The translations under genes and the position numbers were made by a program. A stretch of DNA of 64,000 bases. Origin: Gordius sp. MW1. Its lineage: Eukaryota > Nematomorpha > Gordioida > Gordea > Gordiidae. The DNA lies in the NCBI GenBank assembly GCA_964036665.1, contig OZ038526.1, forward strand, positions 35,588,001 to 35,652,000. The letters are read 5' to 3'. Positions 1,388-42,900 of the stretch are shown here, piece after piece (position 1 is the stretch's first letter; each line of letters begins with the position of its first letter). A model generated the notes under the pieces. That model was not told the DNA's origin. It was given only the letters and a program-made list of their open reading frames with translations, and did no database searches.

Positions 1388-1489
1388 ATGAAAACCTGCT
1401 CAGCACATAAGATGAACGAAACCGGGTATAACACGGAAGAAAAAAAAATTATATTAGTGATACATTGTAAAACAAAATATAAAATGTGA
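1388..1489 (+). pseudogene. Fragment of chimeric-gene exon 1 (copy A')
   Basis: The ATG opens a frame MKTCSAHKMNETGYNTEEKK that is clearly homologous to the starts of the genes at 5033 (MKTRLAHKRTLNETGYHTEE) and 12262 (MKTRSSHRRTLNETGFNKAK). It runs into a stop at about codon 34. The sequence then diverges into material resembling the internal repeats of the hAT-like element at 4334. No second exon is found nearby, so this is a dead truncated copy. Confidence 0.75.
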
Positions 1490-1490
1490 C

Positions 1491-4019
1491 TAATAGCGCC
1501 TCCATGTGATTATGCGTAATGGCTTATAGCGCTTTAAGTGACTATGCGCTATAGCTCTAGCCCCTTTAAATTTTTTTGATAAAAAATGCTTTATATCTGA
1601 AGTATTAAATATATAATGAAATAATAAAAGGATACAAGAACGAAAGTATTTATAAATAAAATGATTAAAAGGCATTATCCGTTTCTTCGTCTTCTTTAAG
1701 AATGGGCATTGAATACATCATGGAATAAAAATTAGAATTAGCGATGGCAATGGCGAATGATTGTCTTAGTAGAAAACTATTCTATTTTTTTGAAGGATGT
1801 GAGCGTTTATCGTGATCTTTAAAAAAGTTAAAGCGCTCTTCCCAAACGTCCTTGAGCACGACGAAACGATAGGAATAAAACTGGCCTGCTAAAGCTTAAT
1901 ATTTTAAGGATTTAAGATGCTCTGCCGATCCTAAGGGTCGTGTGTATCGTTAGAGGGCGCAAACACATCATTATAAGTGTAGTCCCATTTTAGAAAAGGA
2001 CGCATCCGCCCCTCAAAAAAAAGATCTGAAGGTTCGAGGATGGACAGAACTTTTGCCCGTTTGAGGGCAGCTTGTAACAATGTGTTTATTTTTTGGTGCT
2101 TACTATACCTGCTTTTGTTAAATTTACCATTCAGAGGGTGACGCGCTTCCTCATATGCAAGTGAATTACAAAGCCGATAGGGGTATGGTGACGTAAATTT
2201 AAAAACCATGCCAAAAGCTATTCTGAAAGGCATAATTTCTCTAAGAGAATTTTAGAAAATATGCTAGGGTAAGCTTCTAGCCATTCTTGACCGGATTGCT
2301 CAAAAGCCAATGATCTTAGATTGCAATGCTATTTGGCGACGCATTAATGATGATCATGGCCAAAGATCAACCATTTTGTCCTTTTTCCGGGCCTCACTTA
2401 ATTTTTGTGCATTTGTTGGTGTGTGGGTGGCTAACCTTTATGCCAAAAATGTATATAGTTATCTAACCCCCCACTTAGAGTTTGACCATTGTCCCTCCCC
2501 CCCCCCCCTCTTTGCCCCCCCCCCTTGTTCTCCAATTTGTCGCCCATGCCCGCCCTTTACCCCCCCCCCCCCCCACTTTTGCCGCCCGCCCTTTTCTCCC
2601 ACCCCCTCACGCAAGCCTCTAGCGATAAGTGATGACGCACGGCATACGAAACTAAAATGTCATAAAATTTCTATTACCTCGCAAACCCTATTTAGCATCC
2701 ATGCCAATAAAACATTATATAATATTTCGCTTCTGCACAACTCGATTACCAATGCGTTGTGTGCAGTTGTGTGTTTGTTTATATGTATGCAAAAAAATCT
2801 TTTCGTTAATAAACGAAAAAGACAATTTATCCCCTTAAACACATAAATTGGGAAATAGAAATAACTAAATCTTATTTCATTTCATTATTGAAAATAGAAA
2901 TATCTGGTTCGCAAGGATCACTACGTTCAAATGTCTACTCATCATACAGCTCCTATAGAGTAAAATGAGATTAATTTAAGGTAAAATAGTCAATTAATTA
3001 TTTTTTTAACGAAAAGTGTGTATATATTTTTTTTTATTTGCAACACCTAATAACTTAGATTTTAACATTTGTTTTTTCTCATAGTTTTTCAAAATGCCCA
3101 TTTGCCTAAATTTCCCTTATCATTTTGTTTTTTTCAACGTGTCTAATTTTTAAAAGTGCAATATCTTTGATAGTTATTCTCCTGAAGATGATTTATAATT
3201 ATAACAAATTTAACATTTTGTTTCTATTCTCTTAAATTTAATATCATTGAAGATGGGTATTCAGGAGACTATATATACATCCATGAAATTATATTATTAT
3301 AGTCTGTTAAAATAACCTTGGATTCTTTTTTCCCCAAAAATGTAAATTTGAGACTAAATTAATATGTGTAGATGTAATGTTTTACATAAAATACTTCAGT
3401 TATTAAGATATTATCTATAGGTTTTAATCTTTTTAAACTTGCAAATCAAACTTTTTATGATCTATTTATATTCAAATTAATTAAAATGTAAGGGGGGTAA
3501 AAAACTGTATGTCAAGTTTTCTACCTAATTTATACAAGCTTACTAATTCAACCAATATTATTTTTATTTTATGGGCCAAATTAGTCATAGGTGGGTTTTG
3601 GAGGTCGTATTAGCGATAGAAAATTATCCACTTGATAAAATAGCCAAAATAATATATTAATTTAGGGATAAACGTCAAATATCCATACTTTGTTCAAAAT
3701 TTTTATTAGCATACAACCAATTTGTAACAATTTAAAATTTGGGGTTATCATAATCCCCTTTATTATTTATTATTCGTGTTAGCATTTTTGACCTGATCAA
3801 ATAGTTATTAATTCTAATGCTTAGAGTTTGACCATTGCCCGTCCGCCCTCATAGGCATTCTCGATAGCCCGTTTCTCGCCCATAAATTGCATAGCAAATG
3901 TGTTACGATTATACGAAGTATGGATGAGTTATTTATGAGCAATACCCAAGAACTCGGCCCAAGGCGCCAAAACGAATTCCAAGTCGGACACTCAGCAGTA
4001 TTTTGGAGGCGCAGCTCGC
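1491..4019. other. Intergenic, repeat debris; no gene seen
   Basis: Bases 1500-1565 hold GCGC/CTATAG modules (AGTGACTATGCGCTATAGCT) like those inside 4334-4945. Bases 2460-2640 are a C-rich tract, and 3820-3950 matches the end of the Helentron-like repeats (GCCCATAAATTGCATAGCAAA followed by CGAAGTATGGATGAG). The open frame at 2310-2846 is low-complexity proline/cysteine coding across the C-runs and is not credible as a gene. Confidence 0.6.
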
Positions 4020-5032: not shown

Positions 5033-6081
5033 ATGAAAACCCGCTTAGCACATAAAAGAACTTTAAACGAAACTGGTTACCACACAGAAGAAAAAAATAA
5101 TAATAGTAATACATTATCTAACAAAATATAAAATAAATTTAATTCTAACAATATTTTAGACAAGCAAAAGAGCTCTGTGAAATTAAATGAAGCCAAGAAA
5201 AATAAGCAGAATACTAAAGATACATCAGACCTTGCATTAAAAATTGATTCTAAATTAGAATCCAATCAGTCTAAATCTCATGATTCTATGCTATCTTTGA
5301 GTGATGAAAGTAATGTTGAAGACAATTCTAACAATTTAAAAAACCTTTAAATAGTGTTTATCAATGTATAATAGGTGTGCATTATAAGAACAATAATTAA
5401 AACATCTTCTTGGGCAGTTGTTATATTTTAGCCACTTTGACATATTTTTAAAATATATTAAGATGTTTACCATATTAAATATCTTAAGGTACAACAGAAA
5501 CAAAGGCACAAAGTAAGACCACACATTTAAAGAAAGATACCAATCAATCAAATTCTAACTGCATGTTGCCAAAAATATCCAATAATGAGTTTTGTAACTT
5601 GGGGTCTGAGAAAAGTTTTGAAACACTCCTACAATTGGAAGAGGTAAAAAAAATGAATGTAGAAACGGCTAGCACTCATCAGGAATTTTTAAAATCTTAT
5701 GAAGCAGAATTGGCTAATTTAGCAAGTAGCCTGAAATGTGATGAGCATCAACTTGTGCCAGTTCAAATAACAGGGACGTTGCCAGTACCAAGGACTGTTA
5801 CATCGGTTTTAGCCGACATAGCGGTACATAGTAAGGGCCTTAAAGAACTGTTGGATGATAGGCAATTGAATAAAACAAGTCGCGACAGGCGCGAAGCAAA
5901 TTTTGCTTTACATGGCGCTAAGTTGTGTACTCAACAAACTACCGACCTAGAAACACTCAAAATTGTTGACGCTCGATTAGTCACACTCAGTCTAGCGATT
6001 AAATTTAATTGGGACATCGGAATAAAGCATGCCGACACCTGTGCAGACGAACTGGGATTTAAAGACTTGAAGATTTACTAA
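5033..6081 (+). pseudogene. Chimeric XPC-exon-1/novel-exon gene, copy A: exon 1 broken, exon 2 open
   Basis: Exon 1 starts at ATG 5033 and is homologous to the exon 1 of copy B, but has an in-frame TAA at 5129-5131 and another near 5348. The B-type splice donor is also out of frame. Exon 2 (5489-6081, acceptor TTAAG at 5488) is completely open: it reads TTETKAQSKTTHLKKD, then MLPKISNNEF, and ends GFKDLKIY-stop. It aligns to copy B exon 2 over its whole length with in-frame indels only, including the shared blocks SVLADIA, DRREANFAL and KIVDARLVTL. The protein has a probable coiled segment followed by a helical domain that I do not recognise. It is either a pseudogene, or exon 2 is still expressed from ATG 5563 or another first exon. 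A poly(A) signal follows at 6282. Confidence 0.65.
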
Positions 6082-11027: not shown

Positions 11028-12261
11028 TTCTCGGAACCATTTTTTTAATCCTTTACTAAATGACGATCGAACTTCTAAGGTTGACAGATAAAATAACACC
11101 CGGTCCCTATACATTTTACGCTACTTTAATCAACACACTTTTAGGCCCAAGGTCACACTATACTACTAATGCTACTTATTCTACTTACATTAAGCACCCA
11201 CCACACATTCGCGGAAACTATGCAGTTGAAATAGGAATTATTATACGCTCTTTTTAAGGTGACGGGATTTTAATTTTACAAAATTATCACAATTTTTAAC
11301 CTCGATTTTTGAACGAAGTTTTAAAATGCAAAAGCGTTGATTTTATCCATACGCCTGCTCACACGACCCGTCTACAATCAATAATATATGTACTTTGTTT
11401 TAATCATTTACAGGATATTCAACCCGGCTAAGATTTAATTTTAATACAAAAAATCTTTTAACTTTAGTGATCCCTTCAACCGATCCATAATGCACTCATA
11501 CCGCTTGATACACAACGTTGTCGGATTTTTTTAATTATTGCATTATATGCACCAGATGCCAAATTTTTTCGGCGACTAATAATTAATGGTTAATTTAAGT
11601 GGCATTATAACCACAATTTTAATGTTTTAATTTATCGGATATGGTTATATCGAATAAAGGTTTTAACTACTATCACTATTTTAAATTTGCACTAAAAAGG
11701 GTATTTAAAACTTTAATTTTTGTGGGAAGTTTAGTTGTCTACGCTTGCTTAATAAATGGTTGATTTGAGTGGCGTTATACCCATAATTTTAATTATTTAA
11801 TTTATCGGATATGGTAAAAGTTTCTAACTACTATCACTACTTTATTAAGTGTAAAAGGCGTATTTTGGATTATGAATTTTGTGAGAGGTTTAGCATAGTA
11901 TTAGTATAGAGATCGTATTAAATAACAAATTAGTATATAAGGTTTTTTGCGCAGTAGACATTAGATAAAGCTAATAAAATCTATTTATAATTGTAAGAGT
12001 GTTATTTTTATTTGTAAATTTTAAGACACAAACTTCCATTATACATGAAAGTAATTTATAGTATAATTGTTGTTTTAAGTAAAAATAACCTTCAATAAAT
12101 CGCATAAGTGAAAAATTTTTTGCGACAATATTTAAATAATATGAATAAAATCTGTTTTTTGTGTTTAACGTGTATTAATTTTATTAGTCGTGATTATATT
12201 CTTTACATGTAATTAATTGTCTATCTTTAACTTTTTTGGATTTGAACTTAAAAATTTTTAA
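11028..12261 (+). repeat. Tandem segmental duplication, copy 3 (5' flank of intact copy B)
   Basis: This block matches 1-1387 and leads directly into the start codon of copy B. It also has an internal direct duplication: the block TTAATTTATCGGATATGGT plus TAACTACTATCACTA occurs at about 11583-11700 and again at about 11750-11850, which copy 1 lacks. The promoter of copy B must lie here or upstream; I see no diagnostic TATA or initiator that I would defend. Confidence 0.75.
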
Positions 12262-13306
12262 ATGAAAACCCGCTCATCACATAGAAGAACCTTGAACGAA
12301 ACTGGCTTTAACAAAGCAAAAAAAACTATTAATAGTAATACATCAAAATTTAATTCTAACAATACTCTAGGTAAGCGAAAGAGCTCTTTAAAATTAAATG
12401 AAGCCAAGAAAAATAAGCAGTATTTTAAAGATACATCAGACCTTGCATTAGAAATTAATTCTATATTGGAATCCAATCAGGCTAAATCTCATGATATGGT
12501 ATCTTTGGGTGAGAAAATTAAAGTTGAAGATAATTTGGACAATTTAAATATTAAAGAAGCTGTAAAAAGTGATCATCAATGTATAATTGTTCCAGGTTAC
12601 ATTTATTAGTATGCATTTTACATATGTTACTATGTTTGTTATACTATTTTAGCCATTTTGACATACATTTAAACTCATTTAAAATTTTGTTCAAATATAT
12701 ATTTACTCATGTTTATTATATTACATATCTTAAGGTATAACAGAAACAAAGTCACATTTAAAGAAGGATACCAATCAACCAAATGCTAATCGCATGTTGC
12801 CAAAAAAATCTAATAATGAGTTCTGGTCACAGAAAATGGTTGAAACAATTCAAAGTCATTTGGAAGAGTTAAGAAAAAGGAATGCAGAATCGGCTAGAAC
12901 ACACCTGGAATTTTTAAAATCTTATGAAGCAAAATGGGCTAATATAGCAAGTAGTCTGAAATGTAATGTGCATCAAACTCCAGTGCTGGTACAAATCACA
13001 CAGGCCCCATCAGTGTCAAGGTCTGTTACATCAGTTTTAGCCGATATAGCACTACATAGTAAGGGCCTTAAAAAACTGTTGGATGATCAGCTATTGAAAA
13101 AAACACAACGAGACAGGCGCGAAGCAAATTTTGCTTTACATAGCACTAAGTTGTGTAATCAAACTACCGACCTAGAATCTCTCAAAATAGTTGACGCTCG
13201 ATTAGTCACTCTATGTCTAGCGATTAAATTTAATTGGGACACCGCATTAAGGCATGCCGACACCTGGGCAGACGAAATGGGATTTAAGGACTTGAAGATT
13301 TACTAA
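12262..13306 (+). CDS. Intact two-exon chimeric gene, copy B: XPC-like N-terminal exon joined to an unrecognised C-terminal exon
   Basis: Exon 1 is 12262-12595 and exon 2 is 12735-13306. The 139-base intron starts GTTACA and ends CTTAAG, in phase 1. The total is 906 bases, a 301-residue protein. Residues 1-112 are lysine/serine/asparagine-rich and match XPC exon 1 (21921) in three places: the start MKTRS, the block AKKNKQ, and the following (D/S)xSDL; the DNA agrees there too (AAGAAAAATAAGCAG). Residues 112-301 have a charged, probably coiled segment (LEELRKRNAESARTHLEFLK), then SVLADIALHSKGLKKLLDDQ, DRREANFALH and a C-terminal GFKDLKIY. I do not recognise this domain. Its conservation with copy A exon 2, in frame throughout, argues for selection. 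A basic N-terminus suggests a nuclear location. An AATAAA follows at 13474. Confidence 0.75.
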
Positions 13307-13473: not shown

Positions 13474-13479
13474 AATAAA
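13474..13479 (+). promoter_or_regulatory. Poly(A) signal for copy B
   Basis: AATAAA lies 168 bases beyond the copy B stop codon, inside TTTGAATAAACTT. Confidence 0.5.
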
Positions 13480-16597: not shown

Positions 16598-18316
16598 ACT
16601 CGGGCCTTCGGCCCTCGTGGGAAGGGGGAGAAGGGAAGGGGGAGAAGGGAAGGGGAAGAGGGGAAGGGAAGGGGGACGACTCATCTGTACTTCGTATAAA
16701 TGTATCATATTTGCTATGCAATTTATGGGCGAGAAAGGTGGGAAGGGGCGAGAATGCCTATAGGGGGGTATTAAATGCCTAATGATTAATTAATTATTTA
16801 CACAAATTTTCCATTTATAGGCAAAATGTAATATAGGCAAAATGTAATATAGGCAAGGGTTAGGGTTAGATTTAATGTTCTAGTTGCGTATTACATTAGT
16901 TTTTACGGCCTTTAGTGATTATGGGTCTAACAAACATTATTAAAACATCACAATGTTAAGAATTTGCAGAATTGTTGGGAAAATTTTTTGTTGAATTTGA
17001 ACAATTTTTAATTAAAAAAATCAAAAATTTGGCGAATGGTCATTTTTTCTCCATTGGTCAGTACCAACAGATACTCTATAAGTCAATGATAACCAAAAAA
17101 ACGGAAAAAAAATTTGATGCTCACTTTGGCCAATGGTCATTTTTTCCATTGGTCAGCAGCCAGCACACGGTAAAAATGGATATAAATTCATAAGAGTAAA
17201 AAAAACGAGAAAAAAATTTTTGAATCACATTTTGGCCAATGGTCATTTTTTTCTATTGGTCAGCAGCCAGGACACGGGAAAAGTGGATATAAATTCATAA
17301 TAGTCAAAAAAAACGAAAAAAAAATTTTCGAATCACATTTGGGCTAATGGTCATTTTATTCCATTGGTCAGCAGCCAGCGGACGGCCAAAAAGTCATAAT
17401 AGCAATGGTAGGAACAGGAACAATCATAATAGTCAAAAAAAAACGAAAAAGATAATTTCGATTCACATTTTGGCCAATGGTCATTTTTTCCATCGGTCAG
17501 GAGCCAGCGGACGGCCAAAAAGTCATAATAGCAATGGTAGTAACAGGAACAATCATAATAGTCAAAAAAAAACAAAAAAATAAACTCGGATTCACATTTT
17601 GGCCAATGGTCATTTTTTTCATTGGTCAGCAGCCAGCGGACGGCCAAAAAGTCTTATTATCAATAATAGTAACAAGAACAATCATAAGAGCTAACGGCTA
17701 ACCCAAAAACTAGTTAAATTGCATAGCAATTAAAAGTAAACAACTTTTATTTGTGTTTATTATATAATAAAATGAAACAATAATAGAACAAGCGGACGGC
17801 TAAAAAGTCATAATATCAATGGTAGTAACAGGAAAAATATATTAATTTAATGTAAAAAATAAAAAATAAATTTGCCCTCTCCGGGAATCCAACCAGCAAT
17901 TCAGAACGTTCGCCGGGGTTCGAACCCACATTAATAGAGGCATAGGCTTTTGTAGGGGCACAGGGACCCATATCAGTAGAGGCATAGGCCCTTGTAGTGG
18001 AGGGCATAGGGTAATTATAGCAATTAATATCAATGTTACCCAATTCAAAAACGAATAGATATACTTATGCATTAATTTAACATAGCAATTAAAACCCGAC
18101 CCCGCCCGAAAGCGAGGGAGATAGAGATGAGGGGTGGGGCACCTCTTATGCATTAATTTAAAAAATAACACAGCGAGGGAGATAGAGATGAGGGGTGGGG
18201 CACCTCTTTCTCATGCATTAATTTAAAAAATCGATAACCTAATATATTTAATGCAAATAGATAGGGACGGACGGACGGACAACAAAAAACGAGCCCATAA
18301 ATTGCATAGCAATTAA
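16598..18316 (+). mobile_element. Helentron/'pearl'-like element H1 with satellite core
   Basis: Order along the element: terminal ACTCGGGCCTTCGGCCCTCG with a GGGCC-TTC-GGCCC hairpin at 16602-16614; purine-rich GGGAAGGGGGAGAAGG; the conserved block TTTGCTATGCAATTTATGGGCGAGAAAGG; a short GGGTTAGGGTTAG piece; satellite array 17030-17700; internal unit near 18110-18230 (GAGATGAGGGGTGGGGCACC, twice); an ACGG microsatellite at 18267-18280; then AACGAGCCCATA and the hairpin AATTGCATAGCAATT at 18300-18314. There is no coding capacity. This layout (satellite core, ACGG-type tetranucleotide, terminal hairpin) is known from Helentron-associated elements and bivalve pearl elements; family assignment is inference. 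Confidence 0.7.
17030..17700 (+). repeat. Satellite array (about 106- and 129-bp monomers)
   Basis: Head-to-tail monomers carry GGCCAATGGTCATTTTTTCC, then ATTGGTCAGCAGCCAGCGGA, an ACGGCCAAAAAGTCATAATA segment, and an A-rich GTCAAAAAAAACGAAAAAA end. A shorter variant replaces the ACGGCC segment with ACACGGTAAAAGTGGATATA. CCAATGG and CCATTGG can pair to form a hairpin in each monomer. Long open frames through the array are periodicity artefacts. Confidence 0.85.
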
Positions 18317-20999: not shown

Positions 21000-21920
21000 T
21001 AGAAGTTTTTATTATATGATATATTTCAAAGGGAAGGACAATACTAAGTGGCACAAAAATTGTCCTAATAAAAATGTTAGAACAAAATAGAATTGTGTAT
21101 TTCATTTTCCTGGAGTAAAGCCATATGGATGGACAATCAAAACTCCTCTTGATTGTTTTAAATTACTTATTAAAGATGAAATAATTAAGAGTATAGTGAA
21201 ATTTAGCAAATTCATGATTATATAAATATATGTAGAAAATGTATATGTAAAATTTTTATAGCCTCATAAAATTTTTTATGTAACATTTTTCGTTTAAATA
21301 TTTTTCATTAATTTTGATCTTTTATTATTAATCTATATGAAAATTTGATAAAATAACATTAAATTTATAAAAATATGAGTTGAGACCAATAGTAACTTTT
21401 TTTACCTTAAAAAATTAAAAGCCAAAAATTGCCTAAGTTTGAACAACTCTTTTTTTTTTGTTTTTAGGTTATTTTTTACCAAATTTTCCACATTAATAGT
21501 TTAAACCTTCTTTTATATAATATCATTGATTAAACATAAAATAAAATATATTTTTTTATTTTTTTTTGTATGAGCAAAAATAGTCATTGGGAAAAATTTT
21601 TGGGGGTCGCTCTAATTATAATTATAGGTATAAAATTTAAACCACTTGATCAAATAGCCAAATTAATACATTAATGAACGTATAAGAGTTAAAATATTAT
21701 TCTTGCAAATTTTGACAAGTTTATATTATAAAATATCTAAGTTATAGCTATTTAACGTTTGGGGTAATTATACCCCCAAATAGCATCCGTGTTAGCATTT
21801 TTGACCGAACCTAATACGAACGAAGTGTTAAAATTAATGTAACATATTGCCTTATTTTTAATATATCAGCAGATTTAAATTTTGTAAAATTTGCCTTGTC
21901 AAGATCATGTTAATTTAAGA
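21000..21920. other. Upstream region of XPC; no gene recognised
   Basis: Very AT-rich sequence preceding the XPC start codon. An in-frame stop at 21885 and no earlier in-frame ATG support initiation at 21921. A promoter must be here or further upstream, but I see no element I would defend. Confidence 0.4.
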
Positions 21921-24900
21921 ATGAAAACTCGATCGGCACTTAAAAATAAGTGTGAAGATGCTAACGAAAAAGCTAATGAGCCCGACACAAAATTAATTTC
22001 GAAAAAGAGGAAAAATTCCAATTGCTCAAATTCACCTAAAGCTAAGAAAAATAAGCAGATTTCTAATGATTCATCAGACCTCAACAAAGAAAAATTAAAA
22101 TCAGAACCCATTCAGGATAAAGATTATATCTTTGCACAATCTAAAAATGTCAAAAATGAAGATGTGGAAAAATCAGATAATTCAGATTGGGAGGAAGTTG
22201 CAGAAGATGATGGTCGGGGTTTAAAGTTTGTTTCAGGTTATCTATATAAATCTTTGTTATTCAAAACTTAATAAATTTTGTGCCAAAAGTTTACGGGTAT
22301 TATTTTATCATGATCTTAAAGTTTTGTGTTTTTTTTAAATGTTTTTTAAATTCAGGAGCTTAATATCATATATATATCTTTAATTCATATAATTAATTTT
22401 CTACTATATATTGGCAAACTTTTTTTTAATAAAATGACCATATTTTCCATTTTATCGTATAAATTAATATTTATTTTACATTTATTACGGGCACAATTTT
22501 ATCCCATTTAATCATGACATGTTAGTCATAAATAAGAAAGTAGATTTCAACTTTGTAAATTTTTAAGTTGTTTTTAGAAATTAAATTTAAATTGAAATAC
22601 TTCAAATGACAAAAATTAATATTGTATCTACCTTTTATTAAAATATATTAACAAATGTGACTTTTAATATATATCGATTTGGCAACTATAGTTATTTACA
22701 AATCAATACATAACACATCCTGATAAATTACACACAGATATTTAATTTGTTCATTGGTTGTTATTAACAGTATTGTTTCGAATGAGCAAAACATCATTTA
22801 ACAAAGCAGGAGATAGGTCGTGAGGTTTTAAAGTAAGGCTATAATTCATACTGCTAAAGCCTTTGGCAATAGTGGCTTGGGTGTATGCTATGGTTCCAAG
22901 GGTTTGGCGTATTTTAAAAAGTTTTGGGTAAGTCTCCTTCATCCAATTCCAATAATCATCACTTTTCAAGTTGTCACCAGCTTTACATTCACCTCCCAAA
23001 TAATCATTTAACTCCTCTTCTATATGGGCCCTAGCTTCTTTAATACTCCACTTTTCTTCATCTACCGGTGTGGAAGCGCGTTTGGGAGTTACTCCCTCAC
23101 AAAACCCATTATCGAGCTTACTAGGGTTTTGCGCTTCGAAATTTCGGATAAACAACCAGGTTAAAGCTAGGGTTTCTTCTACCTCGATCTGCTCCAAATT
23201 TTGGCTCTCGGTCGGGTTTAGGTAAAGCGATGCCCTAAACAGAGGGTCCTTTGTCAGGGTGGCTAGCTTTTCCTTGAGCGCGTTGGTAAAAACTTTGGCC
23301 CAAGGCGTCTTCAGCGACCCCAACTCCGCGCCACATCGCACCCAGGTCGAGTAAAAGGCGCCGGGCGTCAGGACTCGAGTTTTAACCGTGGCTAAGACGG
23401 CGGAGAGAATTCGTAGCGCGTCTAGTAATTGACTCAGCGCTGACCATTCCCCCTCTTCCAGGTGTAGCTCGGGATTTAATTGGCCGAAATCTCGGCAAAA
23501 CTCCTGGAGCTTGAGCACCAGCGTTTCCACCATGTCGCGAGCATTACAGCCCTCCGAGCGCTCCTCAATCCCTCGGTCCAGGGTGGGGATGGGCAAGTTT
23601 AACTTTTTCAAATACAACGCGAAAGTGGGATTTCTAAGTTTGCGTACCACCATACGCGCTTTTGCCAAAATGGCTTGAACTCCCGCGTCTCGTAAGCCTA
23701 GTTTAATCACCCCTTCCAAGGCTCGAGCTGGGCTCGTCGAGCAAAAAAATTCGCTCCCAAACCCACCCTCGTGGTCTGCCCAATCGAAGAGACCCGCCGA
23801 AGTACATGCCTCCAGCACCGCTCTATTCATGCAATTTTCGCGCTCCATCTCTTCCTCCATCTTACCGCCACTCTGTCGCTGCTGGTACGAATCATCTACT
23901 TCATTGTCGAAACTATCTTGGAATATTTCTGCGTTTAGATCGGCGCTACGATAGCTTTGGGTGGCGCAAAAATCGGTCGAGACCCTGTAAATTTGTTGGG
24001 GTTGTAGGCCGTAAGCGGCCAAGCAACGCTTCAGACAAGCGCTCACCCCTTGAACCGGGTGTACGTCCGTAATGTCCCTAACGTCCAGAGCGTAGCTCTT
24101 CAGCAATTCACCACCCCCTAACGCCGATCCTTGGATAACGAAGGCGTGGCAGGCTAGGAATATTTTGGTTCCCTCGTCAACTAACACGTCGAACTTGAGA
24201 CTGGTGACCGCGTTTTTCAGGCTGTCCCTCATAGTGGTTCTTAAAAGAGAAGCCTTGGCGGTCACGTGTTGTTCTAGGTCCTCACGAGTTACCACGTAAG
24301 ACGAGCTCATTTTGGCCATTCCCAGGGCGATGGCCAGCGGGTCTATGATGCGCCTGAACCCCGGGTCGCGCATAACGTCGAAGGGCAGACCTCCCAGCGT
24401 AACCATTTCGGCTAAGGAGTCCATTAATTTTTCCCTGTCCATCCTAACCTTCACGAATTTGCCCTGATGCTGAGGAGTGCCCGTGGCGAAAGGAAGCCTA
24501 TCGTGGTCGGTGTTGTTTAAAGAGACCAATGTGGTGGAGCGTTCAGGTTGGTCTTGGCTCGTAACAGTATTTTGATAGGGGCTAGAATCGGCTTCATCTA
24601 AGTTAAAATAAAAAAATTGGTATTAACCAAAGGTTGAAATACAAAAGCCATGTGCGTAGCCAAGGGGGGGGGGGGACAGGGATGGGCGGCTTCTCCCCTC
24701 TAAATCCAGTTGAAATTTCATAAAATTATGGCTACAATTTCAAAAAATAATCATTTTACCCCTCCCTAAACATTATTACCCCCCCCCCCCCCCTAATGCC
24801 ATGATGGCTACGTTAAAAGCTATTTATTACCCAAAGGGTAGGATGCCCCCCCCCCTTTTAAACTAGAAGATTGTTTAATTTTAAAAATATTTTGGTTAAA

Positions 24901-27900
24901 ATATTAAAACTTCATTTGTTTACACCCTGCCCCCTGATCCTGGCTGCATAATCTAAATGTTAGAAATAAATATTAATTCCCTATATAAGTAGTCGGTGAA
25001 ACGTGTTTTGTATACCCATGGGCGTAGCCAGGATTGGATTTAGTGGGGGGGGGGTAATTTTTTGTAATATTCGCCATAATTATATTAAATTTTGAAGAAT
25101 TTTTGCATTTAGAGGGGGGCAGCCGCCCCTCCCTTCCACCCCCTGGCTACGCCTATATATATACCCCATTTAACTAACCATTGAAAACGAATAGAGGAAG
25201 CAGGAAGGCTTAATGTTTATTAGTCGACCTCTAGATTTAGTCGAAATTTGAAAAATAGATCAGAGAACCAAAGATCGACCAAACAAACCCCAACCCTTTT
25301 TCAACTCTATATTTTCTAATAAGCGATATTTAAACAAACTTAACAATCGAGATCCCCTCGTCAACTTAACCTTAGGGCTCGTGAAAATTTCCTACAAAAA
25401 TTTATTGCGAGCGAGCACGTATGTTTGTTTACTCTACCTTTATGAGGGCTGGAATTTAGTCGGGATGGAGTTCCGTAATAGGAATGTGAAGAAGAGGGCG
25501 AACTAGAAACTGACTCCAATTCCATGGTTAATAGGATAAATTGTTCGGGATGAAATCTCTTGATGTGCCTTCCAAGGTTAGAAGCATGATTCCCACTTAT
25601 GGCCCTCTCGCAACCTTCTACCTTGCAAATCGATCTTTTGCTCGCCTTGTCGTAGGCGTACAGTTTTCTCACCGGATTTTCTCTCATCTTTATCGTGAAA
25701 GTAAGTTGTTTAACCTGGTGGAACCGAATGTAAAATGACAAAGTAAACTAAATTCGCGTTCTAGAAACAGGCGTTTCGAAACGATGTCGATCGCATAAAA
25801 AGCTTAGAATGATGATGATGATGATAGTGTTGTAAAAACGGCTGGGTTCCGTTTGGTCTACCTTTGGTTTTAGTCGACTAAACGTAAAAGAATTACGGGC
25901 TTTTTGGTCAGTTTTTCTTAGTCGACCTTTAGGCTTGGTCGAAATTTAAAAAACACACCAGAATCGACAGGTAGTACTAGTTGAATCAAAGAAATACCAG
26001 CCGTTTTTACAACTCGAGATGATATAAACCAGGCGCGTAGCCAGGATTTTCACGAGGGGGGGGGGCAATTCTGGCAAAAACAACGCATTTTGTCAAAAAT
26101 CAAATTAAACTAGATGTATGTATTATGTTTGTCGGTTTTTATAAGTGTCTTAAAATCTTTGATGTAACTAAATAAAAAAATTATAATAATTTAACCCCTT
26201 TAATTTAGTTATTAATAAAAAGGGGGGGGGGGGAGGAATTTCCCGTTTCCCCTTCCCCCTCATTTACGACACTGATATAAAAAAAAGGTTTATTAGGCAA
26301 TTATAGGTGACAAAAAAGACAAAAATTTAAAAATAGAATTCAATTTTTAGAAATAATAATTGATCGAGGCCATTTTATGTCCCCATAACAAAAGTATTTA
26401 AAAAATAAACATGACACAAAACTAACTTAACAATAGCTACTACCTGTTGTTAATCCTGGCTGAGAATTTATGCAATTTCCTGATAATACGGTAAATTTAT
26501 GTGGAGGAGGGAGGAGTGTTTTTAAGGTTTTATCTAGCTAGAGGACTAGGAGAGAGAGAGGAGGTTATAAATTCAATATGGTTGCTCGTTGTTTGCGCGT
26601 AGCACACTATCAACACAAAATATACGAACCGGAACCAGTGAGGCAAATTGGTTCCTCCCCTTCTCCCATTCGTCTATTTCTATCCCCCTCCCTCGTGATA
26701 CCTAGTTGCTTTACTCCTCCTCTACGTGTATATGATGCGTTCCTCAAAAATAGGTTAGATAGGGAGGAGGATTGGGGAATTGTCTATATGAATCAGCCCC
26801 TGGGAGCGCGAAAAAGTCGAAAGTTATTATAGTTGTAAGTAGAGCAGCCACCCTGAAGCTTTTGATTGCAAATAATTAATTTTTATTACATAATTGCTAT
26901 GAGGGGCGTACGCAGGATTTTATTTTGGGGGTGGTTTTCAAATTTTTTCTTCAAATATCAAAAAATTTATAGGCAAATTTTTTTATGCAATTTGATTAAA
27001 GAGCTATGTAGTGAGTTTGTCCAGCCAAATTTAAATTTTAATTTCTATTGAAACTGGTTTAAAGAAGATGAGAACATAAAAAACTAATTTGGTATAAATG
27101 TAACAAAACTTATTATTATGTTGATGTTAAGTCTTACTTTGTAATTGTCCTTTATTTGTTTTAATAATAAAAAAAAATTATCTCGATAATAAATACCCAC
27201 TTTTAAAACTAACATAGAATTTCTGTAAAAAAATTTTTTCAATTGTTTCCCCGTTTCAACTTGACAGCATTTAATGCCTGTGAATTAACATTTAAGATTC
27301 TAAAATTGTTATTAATAACACCTGCTTAGGCGAATTTAGAGTCCTGCTTATGAATTTATCTCGTAGCAGCATACAATAAATTTTAATTGCTAATAAATGA
27401 GAAAAACCATAAAAATGTCGATAAATGATTTGTTGAAAATTAAATTATTTTGCAACGATAAAATTATCATATTTTTTAATTCAATATTAAAATTCTGGGC
27501 TTTGCAGTTTAAAAAAAAATATTTGAGAAGCCCGATCATTTTAGTAGAATCCAAGATGCAGGAATCTTCTGAACCCCAATTGGGGCTCAAAATAGATCCA
27601 AAATTGATGTTTTTTTAATTCTTAGTTGATACAATTATTAATTTATTAATAGCGTTATTTCTGACGTACTGTCACCTTATGTAAAATCTTTTTATTCGCA
27701 ACATTATTCCCAACAAGATAAAGAAATAGGAATAAATATTTCTGTTTGTCAGCAATAATTATTTTATAAGAAATTCATTTAATTCATGGGCGTAGCTAGC
27801 ATTTAAATTAGGGGGGGGGGGCGATAATGATTTAGGGAGGGGCAAAATGAACATTTTGTTAAATTGTAGCTATGATTCATAGATTTCAACAAATTTTTGG

Positions 27901-30900
27901 ATTTAGAGGGGGCCAGCCGCCCTTTTACTAAGATATTGACATATTTATTTTATTTATGCATGAGCATAGGCCAAATATAATGATTTTTACGAAAGTAATA
28001 CGTATATTCTTTACTAATTTTGGGAGTTTATATACCACATATATATGAGAGGCCTACTATATTTAAAGGGAAAAAGATTAAATTAATAATTACCTTACCT
28101 CTTCCTACGTGTTCCTAAAAGCTATTTTACCCCTGGGCACCTACGGGTAAAGTTTCGAGCGAATCGGGCGGGTAGTTTCAGAATTTAGCCCTTTTTTAAA
28201 ACTAAAAGGAATTTTTTTTTAATTTTTTTTTTTACTTAAATTAATATTTTGTTCTTGTTAATACCATTTGACTGTCTGCTAACCATTAGAAAATATCACC
28301 ACTGGCCAAAGTGATGGAAAATTTGTATAAATAATTAATTAATCATTAGGCATTTAATACCTTCTATAGGCATTCTCGCCCCTTCCCACCTTTCTTGCCC
28401 ATAAAATTCATAGCAAATATGATACATTTATACGTAGTATAGATGAGTCGTCCCCCCTTCCCTTCCCTTCCCCTCCTCCCCTCCTCTCCTTTTCTTCTCC
28501 CCCTTCCCACGAGGGCCGAAGGCCCGAGTTTTAATATAATGCGATATTAGACAACAAAAAATATTTTTTCCAAAATCCGCGGGGGGGGGGGGGGGTTGAA
28601 CCCCAAAACCACCCCCTTGCGTACGCCACTGATTCCTATGCAACGCAATATACGGGCTCGCTTTTGGTTGTCCGTCCTGTCCTACTCGTAATTTTTTTTT
28701 AAATAATACTATTATTGGTGTAGGCATAATTAGATTTGCAAAACTGTTTCCGGATTTCTCAACGGTTTGTGGTTTTAAAGATACACAATCCCATGGGCGT
28801 AGCCAGCATTGGAATTAGATGGAGGTGGGGGGGGGGGTAATAATGATTTAGGGAGGGGCAAATGATAATTTTAGCCATAATTTTAATAAATTTCAAATAA
28901 TTTTTTGATATACCGGGGGGCAGTTGCATCCCCCTGGCCACGCCGACAGACACAACTGCCCCCCCCCCTCAGCTTGGTCTAAAAGCGAAACTTAAGGTTT
29001 GGGTGGTTGAATTTACAAAATTTATAGACACTTAGATTGTAAACAATTTTTGCTTTTACCCCTTTTAGTGCTCTTTTAATTCTTTGAATGGTATCGTGTA
29101 TTTTTGTTATATAACTTAAATTAAATTTGTTACTAGATGATCGATATATATTTGTTATGTTGTTTCAAAGGGCCTAGCCAAAACTTTTATTTATACCTTA
29201 AATTTAATTTTTTGAAAATATTTATTGATTATATATTTATTTGGCTTTTTTCTTAACTAGTATCTAATTTTAGGCCGACCCTTCCCCCCCCCTTCAATTT
29301 AAATACTGGTTTTAATCAAATATATCAAGTAAAATTGTTAAGGGGCGCAGCTTTAAAAGAAATTGCAATTTAAAAGTAATTTTAATTTGAAAATTTGTAT
29401 AAAAACATTTTTGCAATGAAATTTTTCGGTCAACTTTTCTCTGAGCAACTGATGATTTTCCTTTTTCGAAAAAACCATCTTTGTTTTTTATATATGGATA
29501 GGCCAATTATTAATTTTTTCTATATTTTGGTTAATTTTATTTAAATTACCCCTCCCCACCCTAACTTATTTTTTAGCAAGCACTTAGCTTAACTACCAGA
29601 GAACATAAAATTTTAAGATTATCAATGGCCTTTCAAGTTATGCTATTTAACGTTCATAATGAATTTCTAAAGCCATTACCTTAATATTAGAGCTATTGAA
29701 GAATTTGATTTATGTTTTAGGTTTTAAAACCATTAAGAAGCTCATCATTTTCATATTTTTTATTAATTAAAGTATTTTTAAAATTAGCATCTTCAATAAA
29801 GGAAAGGGTTTGAAGTGTTGAGAAATATTGAAAATTATACTTTTTGGGACAAAACAAATTTTTTCTTTAAATTTTATATTTAAAATTATATTATCCCTTA
29901 TCATGTGGTTTCATGCCATTTTTTTCATGTTAAAAATTTAAAAAAAATGTTTCCTGTCCTCTAGGATTATTACTTTATAATTACATTCAATATTTTATAC
30001 CTGGAATAATTATAAACGAGACCTATTTTTAAATTTTTGAATAATTTATTTTATTAAAAGATTAAACAAAGTTTTATGATTAAGGATTTATAATTCAAGG
30101 TGTTATAGGGATTAGCGTAGTTTTAATAAAAAGAAGTTAACTAAACTAAATCCTTTTTTATCAAGTTTTATCATAATTATATATTATTAGCTTATTATCA
30201 AAGAAATGTATTTGCTCCTAGACCTTTTTTTTAATTATTTCTTTTTATGAAGGGTTAAGCTTTCAACTGTAACTAATGATGCTTTACGGGAAATTTTAAC
30301 AGTTTTTTAAGGAAATTTTTTGGAATCTCTAATATAAAGTTAAAATGCATGAGTCCATGAAACAATATTAATAAATAAATTTTTTTTATAATAGAATTCG
30401 ATAAAAATCTCATGGAAAAAATCAGCAAGATTGGAAGTGAGGTTGAGAGCTCTTCTTACCATGACATCATGTCCAATGGGGTCGCTCCACAAGTTAAAAG
30501 TTTAGCCAGCCTTGAAAATGAGACCAAGCCCTCGGCTATACAAATAAATTTACCCACGGGGGAGCGCAAAGGTGGAAAGTGAGTAATTTTTATTAATTGC
30601 TATGCAATTTTTATGGGCTCGCTTTTTGGTTGTCCATCCGTCCGTCCGTCCGTCTTGACCAACTTGTTATTTTTCAATAATTGCCGTGGAAACTTATACG
30701 GGTTTTTAATGGCTGTGGACTTATGTTTCTGTAAAAGACTTTTATTTTGCTTTCGCTAATAGACACCCTAATGACCGCTGGTTGGCTTTACTTTTTTCGA
30801 CCTCGCCCGAGTCCAAATTTATTATTTTTTATGAGCCCGACTGATTACCTTTATTAATAAATTTATTTTTGGCAATTTGTCTAAGTTGTGCCTTTATATC

Positions 30901-33900: not shown

Positions 33901-36900
33901 GGTTACTGTAAATTGTGTAAAAGCTGTAAATCCTCAAGCTTCAACCACGCCTTTAAGAAAATCAGATGAGGAAACTGGCGAAATTTCTAGTAGGAATAGG
34001 ACTCGCTCAAAATCGACAACCAAAGAAACCGATACCAAATCTCCTCACGCTGTACTTATAGTGTCACCTTATTTTAAGGCTTCTAACGCCCAAAACCAAG
34101 CTAGTTATGGTCACGTAGAAGCACCCGAAAGTGTGGTTAAATCGTTGAAACTCCCAAAAACAATCGCTTACATCATTGGTAATTTTAAAATAAATTTTGT
34201 GTTATTAGTTACAAATCATATGGTAAATTAATTTATCAATTTTTACAATAGTTTATAATAATAATTGACCCTAGTGACAGAAAAAAACTACTGTAATCAT
34301 GGGCGTAGTCAAGGGGAGGAAGGAAGGGGCGGCTGCCCCCCTCTGAATCCTTAAATGTGTTGAAATCTTTTGAAAATCATGGCTAAAATTTTAAAAAAAT
34401 GATCATTTCGCTTCTCCCTAAATCATTATTGTCTCCCTCTAATTCCAACTTTGACTAAGCCTATGATTGTAAACCTACTACTTATTAGTGTTTCAAAAAC
34501 GGGTGGGTTTTGTTTGGTCGACCTATGGTTTAACCATAGACTAACCGTCGCTTCTGGTCTGTTTATGTTTAGTCGACCAAACAAATTCCAGCCGTTTTTA
34601 CAACACTACGACATATTATTTCTACTAAAAGTTCAATCATACTGACTACTAGCTGTTATGACCTAATAAATATTTAGATTTTTAAGCGTTATAGTTTTAT
34701 AACTTTTGTTAATAAGGCTTAACCGAGAAAAACCACGTTCGAGATTTGAGCGTAAAATATGCACCAGATTGGCACATAAATGGACGAAAGCTGAGAATTG
34801 GATTTCGAAGTGAGGAACATGCCTGGTGGCATTCCACTTTGGAACGGCTTAATGCTAAGATTTCTACAGAACATCAGGATCTTTTATCTTTCGGGAAAAA
34901 GAAGGGACGCAAAATGAAGACAGCTAAAGTTGTTAAAAAAGAGGTTGAGGCACTGGAGGAAAACGAAATTTTAGGTATACTTTTTAATTGCTATGCAATT
35001 TATGTATTAGTTATTTATCTAAACTTTTCCTTATAAAAAATACATTTTGGCGTCTAAATTATTAATTGCTATGCAATTTATGGGCTCGCTTTTGCTTTTG
35101 TTTGTCCGCGTCCGCTTTTGTTTGTCCGCATCCGCATACACCCTCCCTATCTATTTGCATTGGGCATATTAGGTTTTGTTTACCAGTATAGATAAGGAGG
35201 GGAATTGCTCTAAGTGATTAATGCATGAGAAAGAGGTGCCCCACCCCTCATCTCTATCTCCCTCGCTGTGTTATTTTTTAAATTAATGCATAAGTATATC
35301 TATTCGTTTTTGAATTAGGTAACATTGATATTAATTGCTATAATTACCCTATGCCCTCCACTACAAGGGTTTGGGTTAGAATCTCGAAGTTTTTTTAGAC
35401 TCTTATGATTGTTCTTGTTACTATCATTGATAATAAGACTTTTTGGCCGTCTGCTGGCTGCTGACCAATGAAAAAAATGACCATTGGCCAAAATGTGAAT
35501 CCAAGTTTCTTTTTTCTTTTTTTTTGACTCTTATGATTGTTCCTGTTACTACCATTGCTAATACGACTTTTCGGCCGTCCACTGGCTGCTGACCAATGAA
35601 AAAATGACCATTGGCCAAAATGTGAATCCAAGTTTATTTTTTCGTTTTTTTTGACTATTATGATTGTTCCTGTTACTACCATTGCTAATACGACTTTTCG
35701 GCCGTCCGCTGGCTGCTGACCGATGGAAAAAATGACCATTGGCCAAAATATGAATCCAAGTTTATTTTTTCGTTTTTTTTTGACTATTATGATTGTTCCT
35801 GTTCCTACCATTGCTATTATGACTTTTTGGCCGTCCGCTGGCTGCTGACCAATGGAATAAAATGACCATTGGCCAAAATGTGATTCGAAAACTTTTTTTT
35901 CGTTTTTTTTTGACTATTATGAATTTATATTCACTTTTACCGTGTCCTGGCTGCTGACCAATGGAAAAAAATGACCATTGGCCAAAATGTGATTCGAAAA
36001 TTTTTTTTTCGTTTTTTTTACTCTTATGAATTTATATCCATTTTTACCGTGTGCTGGCTGCTGACCAATGGAAAAAAATCACCATTGGCCAAAGTGAGCA
36101 TCAAAATTTTTTTTTCAGTTTTTTTGGCTATCATTGACTTATAGAGTATCTGTTGGTACTGACCAATAGAGAAAAAATGACCATTGGCCAAATTTTTGAT
36201 TTTTTTAATTAAAAATTGTTCAAATTCAACAAAAAATTTCTCCCAACAATTCTGCAAATTCTTAACATTGTGATGTTTTATAATATAATGTTTGTTAGAC
36301 TTATATTCACTAAAGGCCATTAAAACTAATGTAATACCCAACTAGATGCAAACACTAAATCTAACCCTAACCCTTGCCTATATTACATTTTGCCTATAAA
36401 TGGAAAATTTGTATAAATAATTAATTAATCATTAGGCATTTAATACCCCCCTATAGGCATTCTCGCCCCTTCCCACCTTTCTCGCCCATAAATTGCATAG
36501 CAAATATGATACATTTATACGAAGTATAGATGAGTCGTCCCCCCTTCCCTCCCCCCCCCCCCTTCCCTTCTCCCCTCCCCCTTCCCACGAGGGCCGAAGG
36601 CCCGAGTATTTTTATTGTTTTGAGATCCAAATTTATGTGGGATTTTTGGGTTATTGGCACTTGTTTTGGTCTGTAATTGGTTTCAGTAAAGATTTTCCAA
36701 CTTATTAATTTTTAAATTAAGCATTTCATAAGTAATTTTGCTACTAATATACCAAAAAATTTGTTTTCCCCCTTGTCGATTTACTTTTTTTAATAATATT
36801 GTTGAGGCTTTAGGTAATGATATTTAATGACTTGTTTTTTCTTCCCAGCCGTGTCACAAAAAAGGCCTTTGCCCACAACTATCAATGAATATAAAGATCA

Positions 36901-39900: not shown

Positions 39901-42900
39901 AATAGTAGAAGTTATTATGTTATTTATATAGATGATGAAATTAATATGACTTTTTGACCGTCCGCTGGCTACTGACCGACGAAATATATTGATTTTCTAA
40001 ACATAAAACACAACTATTAACAAAAACAAAATATTAATTTAATGTAAAAAAAAAATTAAAAAAAAAGTTTTTTTTAGTTTTAAAAAAGGGCTAAATTCTT
40101 AAACTACCAGCCCGATTCGCTCGAAACTTTACCCGTAGGTGCCCAGGGCGGCCGGGGGTAAAATAACCTTTTCAGATTCCTAAAATACCTTTTCATTTTA
40201 AAAATATCGGACATTTCCCTGCCACACGCGGTGTAATATCTATGACACGTAGAAAAATTTTACTAATTATATAAACTTACGCGCGCCATCTAATAAAGTA
40301 CAATTCGTGTTTGAGTTTAATAGTAGATTCAATTTAATTAGAAATAACGGGCTATGCTTATACCTTTGAAGGAGGTTTCGAATTTTGTGTTAGTTTCTAT
40401 CGATATATTTTATCGTAAATTAGAATCTAATACCTATATTATTTTTTTAAATATTACTTTTTAGGTTTTCTATGAAATCACAATCTAATTAAATGAAATA
40501 TATTAACCCAATAAAAAAATATATATGCATTTATAAGGTTAAAAATATATATTACATAGTTGGCTGTCTGTTAGACCATCTATAATAAATTTTTAGGTTA
40601 TATATAAAATTTGGCCAATGGTCATTTTTTTTCATTGGTAAGCAGCCAGGACACGGTAAAAGTGGTTATAAATTCATAAGTCAAAAAAAAACGAAAAAAA
40701 AAATTTTCGAATCACATTTTGGCCAATGGTCATTTTTTCCATCGGTCAGGAGCCAGCGGACGGCCAAAAAGTCATAATAGCAATGGTAGTAACAGGAACA
40801 ATCATAATAGTCAAAAAAAACGAAAAAATAAACTCGGATTCACATTTTGGCCAATGGTCATTTTTTTCCATTGGTCAGCAGCCAGCACACGGTAAAAGTG
40901 GATATAAATTCACAAGAGTAAAAAAAACGAAAAAAAAATTTTCGAATCACATTTTGGCCAATGGTCATTTTTTTCCATTGGTCAGCAGCCAGCGGACGGC
41001 CAAAAAGTCATAATAGCAATGGTAGGAACAGGAACAATCATAATAGTCAAAAAAAACGAAAAAAATAATTTCGATTCACATTTTGGCCAATGGTCATTTT
41101 TTTCCATCGGTCAGGAGCCAGCGGACGGCCAAAAAGTCATAATAGCAATGGTAGTAACAGGAACAATCATAATAGTCAAAAAAAAACGAAAAAATAAACT
41201 CGGATTCACATTTTGGCCAATGGTCATTTTTTTCATTGGTCAGCAGCCAACGGACGGCCAAAAAGTCTTATTATCAATGATAGTAACAAGAACAATCATA
41301 AAAGTCAAAAAAAACTCCGGGATTCTAACCCAAAAACTAGTTAAATTGCATAGCAATTAAAAGTAAACAACTTTTATTTATGTTTATTATATAACATTGG
41401 TCAGCAGCCAGCGGACGGCCAAAAAGTCATAATAGCAATGGTAGAAACAGGAACAATCATAATAGTCAAAAAAAACGAAAAAAATCATTTCGATTCACAT
41501 TTTGGCCAATGGTCATTTTTTTCATTGGTCAGCAGCCAGCGGACGGCCAAAAATTCTTATTATCAATGATAGTAACAAGAACAATCATAAGAGTCAAAAA
41601 AAACTCCGGGATTCCAACCCCAAAACTAGTTAAATTGCATAGCAATTAAAAAGTAAACAACTTTTATTTATGTTTATTTATAACTAGTTAAATTGCATAG
41701 CATTAAAAGTAAACAACTTTTATCTATTAATTGCTATGCAATTTATGGGATCGTTTTTTGGTGTCCGTCCGTCGTCCGTCGTCCGTCGTCCGTCGTCCGT
41801 CGTCCGTTACCCTATCTATTTGCATTGGGTATATTAGGTTATCGCTTTTTTAAATTAATGGATGAGAAAGAGGTGCCCCACCCCTCATCTCTATCTCCCT
41901 CGCTGTGTTATTTTTAATTGCTATGCATAAGAGGTGCCCCACCCCTCATCTCTATCTCCCTCGGTGTGCTATATAATGGTTATATATAAGATTTGTTAAA
42001 TTATCTATTATATAATAAACATAGATAAAAGTTGTGCTATGCAATTTAACTAGTTATATAATTAACATAAATAAAAGTTGTTTACTTTTAATTGCTATGC
42101 AATTTAACTAGTTTTGGTTATATAATAAATATAAAAGTTGTTTACTTTTAATGCTATGCAATTTAACTAGTTATAAATAAACATAAATAAAAGTTGTTTA
42201 CTTTTTAATTGCTATGCAATTTAACTAGTTTTGGGGTTGGAATCCCGGAGTTTTTTTTGACTCTTATGATTGTTCTTGTTACTATCATTGATAATAAGAA
42301 TTTTTGGCCGTCCGCTGGCTGCTGACCAATGAAAAAAATGACCATTGGCCAAAATGTGAATCGAAATTATTTTTTTCGTTTTTTTTGACTACTATAATTG
42401 TTCCTGTTTCTACCATTGCTATTATGACTTTTTGGCCGTCCGCTGGCTGCTGACCAATGTTATATAATAAACATAAATAAAAGTTGTTTACTTTTAATTG
42501 CTATGCAATTTAACTAGTTTTTGGGTTAGAATCCCGGAGTTTTTTTTGACTTTTATGATTGTTCTTGTTACTATCATTGATAATAAGACTTTTTGGCCGT
42601 CCGTTGGCTGCTGACCAATGAAAAAAATGACCATTGGCCAAAATGTGCATCCGAGTTTATTTTTTCGTTTTTTTTGACTATTATGATTGTTCCTGTTACT
42701 ACCATTGCTATTATGACTTTTTGGCCGTCCGCTGGCTCCTGACCGATGGAAAAAATGACCATTGGCCAAAATGTGAATCGAAATTATTTTTTTCGTTTTT
42801 TTTGACTATTATGATTGTTCCTGTTCCTACCATTGCTATTATGACTTTTTGGCCGTCCGCTGGCTGCTGACCAATGAAATAAAATGACCATTGGCCAAAA

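Follow-up and report, generated by a model that had tools for sequence, protein, structure and literature searches.

Probable domesticated retroelement Gag genes with an XPC-derived 5′ exon beside XPC in Gordius sp. MW1

Introduction

Host–transposase fusion genes arise by exon capture, in which a host 5′ exon is spliced to the coding sequence of a mobile element. The gene family described here differs from such fusions in that the mobile-element part is Gag, not transposase, and in that the host part would be weakly translated or not translated at all.

Closer comparisons come from host genes and element products built on Gag. The yeast gene DRT2 is described as a domesticated Ty1′ Gag restriction factor; like the family here, it derives from gag and resides in a host genome that retains related elements, whereas restriction has been demonstrated for DRT2, and its abstract mentions no host exon in front (PMC10951436). 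RTL8, a truncated Gag-like protein, is described as antagonising PEG10 particles, and so provides a shortened Gag that interferes with a fuller relative, as in the model considered below; unlike our family, it is a mammalian Mart-family gene, and what it targets is itself a domesticated gene and no mobile element (PMC11684626). The p22 copy-number control factor of Ty1 is reported to be a partial Gag acting as a trans-dominant inhibitor, again resembling the model here, although p22 is made by the element itself (PMC4599808). We use DRT2, RTL8 and p22 as a model for a Gag without its tail, and make no claim of membership. For the 5′ exon, a shared-signal-sequence gene family of Schistosoma japonicum is comparable, in that a 5′ coding segment has spread by duplication with repeats nearby, but that segment is a signal sequence, not an exon of a repair gene, and the abstract describes no Gag (PMC3434034). 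Narrow term searches of open-licence papers did not find an XPC–Gag fusion.

Here, we analyse a 64,000-nucleotide window (C8:35588001–35652000) of the 211.8-Mb genome of Gordius sp. MW1. The original prediction for this stretch was a chimeric gene, driven by a duplicated first exon of XPC and perhaps by its promoter, and ending in an unrecognised C-terminal part. We correct the claim of an XPC-driven chimera: judged from sequence, the locus probably belongs to a small family of domesticated, tail-less Gag genes with an XPC-derived 5′ exon. The unrecognised protein thereby gains a concrete origin in a retroelement Gag, and the locus would offer a natural case in which duplication of a host exon and a Gag fragment gave a small gene family, whose steps (parent exon, relic, stopped frames and open frames) can be ordered on one contig.

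Results and Discussion

Structure of copy B and the neighbouring XPC gene

The exon boundaries predicted for copy B hold at the positions given in Table 1, and the 12595/12735 join is in phase 1 and open for 301 amino acids, as had been claimed. The phase-1 CAG/GT donor of its exon 1 is, as predicted, common to exon 1 of XPC. That exon joins in frame to an exon 2 at 30395, and a Rad4-domain exon lies at 34716, which together identify the gene from 21921 onward as XPC by sequence; searches of Pfam and the PDB with XPC exon 1 returned zero matches. AATAAA or ATTAAA signals are present downstream of copies A and C as well as of copy B.

Table 1. Positions of the gene copies, the relic and the XPC exons within the window
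Feature	Position	Strand	Remark
Copy B exon 1, putatively XPC-derived	12262..12595	+	334 nt; ATG to CAG/GTTACA donor, phase 1
Copy B intron 1	12596..12734	+	acceptor ...CTTAAG/GTATAACAG
Copy B exon 2, Gag-derived	12735..13306	+	stops short of basic tail
Copy B exon 2 in-frame ATG, alternative start	12794..12796	+	kept in A, B and C
AATAAA or ATTAAA signal 3′ of copy B	13474..13479	+	
Copy A exon 1 relative	5033..5345 (3′ limit approximate)	+	TAA in frame at 5129–5131
Copy A exon 2, wholly open	5489..6081	+	ATG at 5563–5565
Relic of exon 1 (copy 0)	1388..1485	+	carries AACAAAATATAAAAT; no exon 2 found
XPC exon 1, favoured parent of the exon-1 family	21921..22236	+	316 nt, phase 1; DWEEV, W at residue 90
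XPC exon 2, inferred	30395..30578	+	AG before, GTGAGT after
XPC exon region with Rad4 domain	34716..35036	+	PF03835, 27.2 bits, cut-off 27

The first exons are related to XPC exon 1

Kinship of the first exons with XPC exon 1 was compared with shuffled alignments, and at the DNA level it lies far outside chance (z of 14–15 for A and B), bearing out the proposed paralogy. Local DNA alignment with XPC exon 1 scored 65 for copy B (shuffled mean 22.9, s.d. 2.9, maximum 39) and 69 for copy A (shuffled mean ∼23, maximum 41), and none of 1000 shuffles was as high in either case. Protein shuffles gave a weaker result than DNA. For copy B, 3 of 5000 reached the local score and 0 of 5000 the global score; the figures are 49 of 5000 and 0 of 5000 for copy A, and 20 of 5000 and 18 of 5000 for copy B minus its first five residues. 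The local DNA match between copy B and XPC comprises the AAGAAAAATAAGCAG...TCAGACCT stretch and the sequence after it. Taken separately, the first 120 nt and the last 110 nt of copy B exon 1 gave global z values of 3.2 (2 of 500 shuffles) and 4.5 (0 of 500), and did not stand out locally (z of 0.5 and 1.8). A genome search with XPC exon 1 returned that exon only, and because XPC and the copies miss each other in loose genome searches, the kinship rests on this direct comparison. The further relative predicted at 1388 is real, being 77% identical to copy A over 149 bp, but no second exon was found nearby.

An XPC exon-1 duplicate in front of an unrelated exon is thus upheld, by the paralogy and by the four two-exon copies described below, while the suggested duplication of the promoter is not. 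Upstream comparisons over 300 bp (z of −1) and over 60 bp do not rise above chance, and the 68% similarity between 3558–3793 and 21556–21806 was rejected as a promoter remnant, being part of an interspersed repeat found genome-wide; the stretch at 21556–21806, just upstream of XPC, has at least 40 copies in the genome (40 matches scored of 680 candidates). Nor did the comparison show a shared intron start between XPC and the copies, for which z was 0.7 locally and 2.3 globally with copy B, and −0.6 and −0.4 with copy A.

Near its end, XPC exon 1 holds SDNSDWEEVAEDD, and it keeps an acidic D-W-E-E-V stretch with W and V at +3 spacing. Human XPC Trp133/Val136 and yeast Rad4 Phe95/Val98 share this +3 spacing and are described as sitting in pockets of the TFIIH PH domain (PMC10345426). 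Exon 1 of A, B and C contains no tryptophan, and the D-W-E-E-V motif is missing from the copies. This one motif makes XPC likelier as the donor than as the recipient of exon 1, so that between the two directions originally put forward, duplication from XPC is favoured and capture by XPC disfavoured.

The second exon derives from a retroelement Gag

The C-terminal part that had been called unrecognised derives from the Gag-like ORF that precedes the reverse transcriptase of a retroelement. When exon 2 was searched against its own genome (150 of 175 candidates scored), at least 149 matches reached E ≤ 0.001, the query among them. Four of these are the family itself (copies A, B, C and D); the best among the other 145 has an E-value of 9.7e-25, and these are 25–51% alike, with the exception of one 31-residue match at 68%. 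Identity of the family is about 33–48% to full-length Gag ORFs of the main group and 26–27% to five distant Gags.

Three element places were examined closely (C8:30.29 Mb, C2:17.01 Mb and C2:0.376 Mb, corresponding to loci L005/L017, L008/L018 and L021), and in each the match lies inside an ORF of 247–249 amino acids, with a reverse transcriptase ORF overlapping it or after it. At L021, two identical 135-bp direct repeats, 2818 bp apart from start to start, flank both long ORFs, and an LTR retroelement is a candidate source. The 625-amino-acid ORF matches RVT_1 at 3.2e-27 and the Ty3 reverse transcriptase at 9e-12, and RVT_1 was the sole Pfam domain found in either ORF at E 1, with no match for RNase H, protease or integrase. 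The source element looks unusual: within about 2.95 kb, 135-bp direct terminal repeats enclose one ORF for Gag and one for reverse transcriptase; an example spans L021:5375–8327, and further loci are L018 and L034. A DIRS-type source is not supported: the genome gave no match to the PF00589 tyrosine recombinase, a model that diverged recombinases may escape.

A genome search with the 625-amino-acid ORF returned at least 73 matches (70 of 2280 candidates scored). At least 56 of these are preceded within 2.5 kb by a Gag match on their own strand, a count based on 89 of the 145 Gag places. None of the 73 reverse transcriptase matches listed falls within 20 kb of a family copy. With one element as the probe, the best pol similarity near the family had E-values of 0.18 in the window, 1.8 in the C/D region and 0.16 in the 10 kb upstream of the window, and the surroundings of the four copies gave no match to the terminal repeat; by this single probe, the rest of the element is gone from around the family.

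Protein profile and structure searches, which had been proposed as a check on exon 2, recognised no known domain or fold. In Pfam, copy B gave sub-threshold matches only (best Cullin, E of 0.002, 17.3 bits against a cut-off of 33.2) and copy A none, and the best E-value in a PDB sequence search was 0.22. Fold models of exon 2, made for A and B, had a mean pLDDT of 53, which is too poor for a capsid fold to be read, and matched nothing in the PDB at E ≤ 0.001.

Two arrangements of the elements may be recorded here. The 145 non-family Gag matches include 25 neighbouring pairs within 6 kb (0.6 expected at random), 18 of them on opposite strands, a count in which fragments of one broken copy may appear as neighbours. 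L034 is a tandem join with one common repeat, and several loci match the terminal repeat only from position 54 on.

Four two-exon copies, and absence of the basic Gag tail in A, B and C

Four two-exon copies were found, and they share a single contig. A and B are neighbours of XPC, whereas C and D lie at C8:2.90 and 2.92 Mb, some 33 Mb distant. DNA searches with the exon-1/intron part and with the exon-2 part each returned these four loci and no others, and a genome search with exon 1 as protein returned the same four. None of these searches returned the short relic 0, so that other short remnants may have escaped them. In each of the four copies, exon 2 is an open frame.

We placed A, B and C in a Gag tree of 44 rows with 41 distinct element ORFs of at least 170 amino acids, drawn from 46 loci among the 149 matches listed; L017 and L030 (repeats of L005 and L007) and copy D (whose match scores are the same as those of C) were left out. 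The tree unites A, B and C in one clade (100/99), separate from 36 element Gags and from five more distant ones, and long branches make the point at which this clade joins uncertain.

In A, B and C, the protein stops immediately ahead of the basic, GRG-rich tail that characterises the element Gag. In 39 of 41 element Gags at least 20 residues lie past the family end point, GRG occurs in 36 of 41, and the median net charge is +10; it is from this composition that we infer what the tail does.

Intron 1 of copy C holds a 7231-bp transposon (C8:2894061–2901291; L022/L014), with inverted ends GGGGAGACCGGGGCTAT and, by eye, a TA target duplication.

Exon 2 is under purifying selection

Under a one-ratio codon model, exon 2 of A, B and C has an omega of 0.56 (p = 0.008), indicating purifying selection, and the other two frames of the same alignment give 1.30 and 1.29. 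Codons with gaps or stops are dropped from the omega estimates (9 in exon 2 and 12 in exon 1). Pairwise NG86 values for exon 2 are 0.50 (0.30–0.83) for A–B, 0.46 (0.29–0.72) for A–C and 0.67 (0.38–1.19) for B–C; with a protein-guided alignment they are 0.56 (0.34–1.01), 0.48 (0.31–0.74) and 0.64 (0.36–1.22), so that B–C alone does not reject an omega of 1, and A–B just fails to do so with the protein-guided alignment. The exon-2 indels that separate A, B and C all have lengths divisible by three, and no stop interrupts any of these copies, while in a neutral simulation three lineages stayed stop-free with a probability of 1.3e-4 to 8.8e-3 (4–8% change each). Residues conserved among the elements are no more often invariant within the family (25 of 39) than variable ones (72 of 119; p = 0.71).

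Exon 1 is closed by a stop codon in most copies

The first exon is less regular. A TAA lies in frame in exon 1 of A, C and D at about codon 30–33, within AACAAAATATAAAATAAATTT; it is codon 33 in copy A, which is not intact, with the donor of B lost by deletion and no CAG/GT in its place. Relic 0 holds the first part of the AACAAAATATAAAATAAATTT segment, and copy B is without 18 nt at this site. Intron divergence is 14% for B–C and 26–27% from A to B or C; 3′ flank divergence is 5.9% for B–C and 39–42% for the other pairs, the copy A flank being doubtful beyond about 13413, and a pooled test using the 3′ flank was set aside. As intron and 3′ flank both group B with C, the exon-1 TAA probably predates B, and the open exon 1 of B would be a later state produced by the 18-nt deletion.

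Each GT in exon 1 was then paired with one fixed acceptor. The sole donor that is open in A, B and C alike is ATA/GTAATA, after 73 nt in A and B or 64 nt in C. Copy B is also open with TAG/GTAAGC at 12370, which has the best consensus, and with CAG/GTTACA at 12595, which is weak by consensus and missing in A and C; all of these donors are in phase 1. With these joins, the whole of exon 1 reads on into the Gag exon in B only, and its first 21–24 codons do so in A, B and C by way of a weak donor.

Readings of exon 1 and of the family

Splicing from this common donor (12334 in B, 5105 in A and offset 64 in C) would remove the TAA and leave A, B and C open as short chimeras of 221, 214 and 215 residues, with 21–24 XPC-derived codons ahead of Gag. 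We regard such products as possible but doubtful. That no other surveyed donor serves all three copies, in phase 1 in each, argues for them, as does an omega of 0.545 over the first 24 codons (1.29 over the remainder), although only 20 codons could be compared (p = 0.40) and the donor has a weak consensus.

A fuller chimera, in which B makes a 301-residue protein of 111 XPC-derived residues plus Gag and A, C and D are degenerate, appears unlikely. The frame of B runs open from its ATG across both exons, and A, B and C differ in exon 1 by indels of 9, 18, 3 and 3 nt, each a multiple of three, but A and C also have indels of 7 and 1 nt close to the 3′ end of this exon. Divergence in exon 1 is below that of upstream plus intron sequence, at 14.6% against 24.8% for A–B (p = 0.01), 14.3% against 27.2% for A–C and 10.9% against 18.7% for B–C, which speaks for the fuller chimera; yet omega over the whole of exon 1 is 1.06 (p = 0.88), and coding constraint was not seen. 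The age of the stop is also at issue. The Gag protein tree, unlike the intron and 3′ flank, pairs A with C, weakly (91/73, branch 0.019), from which the TAA could be a later change in the A/C line, whereas its presence in A, C and D, the partial segment in relic 0 and the close kinship of B and C make it look ancestral. The predicted chimeric protein accordingly survives as an open frame in B but not as the product of the family, in which A, C and D share the TAA and the exon-1 frame is unconstrained.

Across both exons, all six comparisons with upstream plus intron sequence have p < 0.03; against the intron alone, B–C (both exons) and A–C exon 2 are not significant. Past codon 24, DNA conservation of exon 1 is about equal to that of exon 2, though this part is closed in A and C, and the domesticated-Gag model does not explain it.

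Slightly less likely still is that the copies are functionless and decaying, with exon 2 open by chance or through recent age. The stopped exon 1 and altered donor in two of three lineages are what decay would leave, and the 7.2-kb transposon in the intron of C fits with it; the frame-specific constraint on exon 2, with no stop or frameshift in three lineages, does not. That A and B serve XPC as alternative first exons, splicing from phase-1 donors to its exon 2 at 30395, is very improbable, for although they lie on the same strand about 10 and 17 kb upstream and the donors of B and XPC share a phase, A lacks the donor seen in B, C and D carry both exons about 33 Mb away, and the constraint on exon 2 points to a coding target of their own.

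How the family may have formed and what it may do

In the reading that we prefer, that of domesticated, tail-less Gag genes, an extra copy of XPC exon 1 lies just upstream of XPC, ahead of a Gag fragment from an abundant retroelement. The XPC-derived sequence would be the 5′ exon, joined at an acceptor where the Gag-derived part begins, and would supply a leader and at most a short N-terminus of 21–24 codons, a length set by the one donor with which all of A, B and C stay open. Up to 111 XPC-derived residues would be possible in copy B alone. Otherwise, translation would begin at the conserved ATG of exon 2.

The least certain step is what the protein would then do. A Gag without its tail might co-assemble with the Gag of the parent element and interfere with it, as truncated and domesticated Gags do elsewhere, and by this analogy the family possibly antagonises its parent retroelement. 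A stronger version, in which copy B acts as a restriction factor on a parent element that remains numerous, combining a tail-less Gag with an XPC-derived N-terminus born by local exon-1 duplication, such that retroelement control grew out of the XPC locus, seems quite improbable. If expressed, the family would allow a direct test, beyond the yeast and mammalian cases, of whether a Gag lacking its basic tail restrains a numerous retroelement in an animal.

Other features of the window and genome

A direct repeat with 92% identity (3–722 and 11028–11734) lies upstream of relic 0 and of copy B, and is apparently younger than the A/B duplication. Intron 1 of XPC contains two ORFs on the reverse strand, one of 623 amino acids (22751–24622) with no Pfam match at E 1, and one at 25361–25747 with a BED-like C..C...H....H pattern by eye; these are perhaps from a hAT-type transposase. 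Arrays of a related repeat, direct and inverted, occupy 17028–17870, 35390–36192, 40606–41683 and 42171–43354, and those at 40.6–41.7 kb and 42.2–43.4 kb appear as inverted blocks. Two further reverse-strand ORFs (47087–47317 and 56842–57150) read by eye like adducin.

Elsewhere in the assembly, the mitochondrial contig (C12) is 14,798 bp long, with COX1 open under the invertebrate code. Many COX1-like matches are nuclear (C8, C4, C1, C3 and C5), and one that covers 435 of 436 model positions lies fairly close to copies C and D, at C8:2829490.
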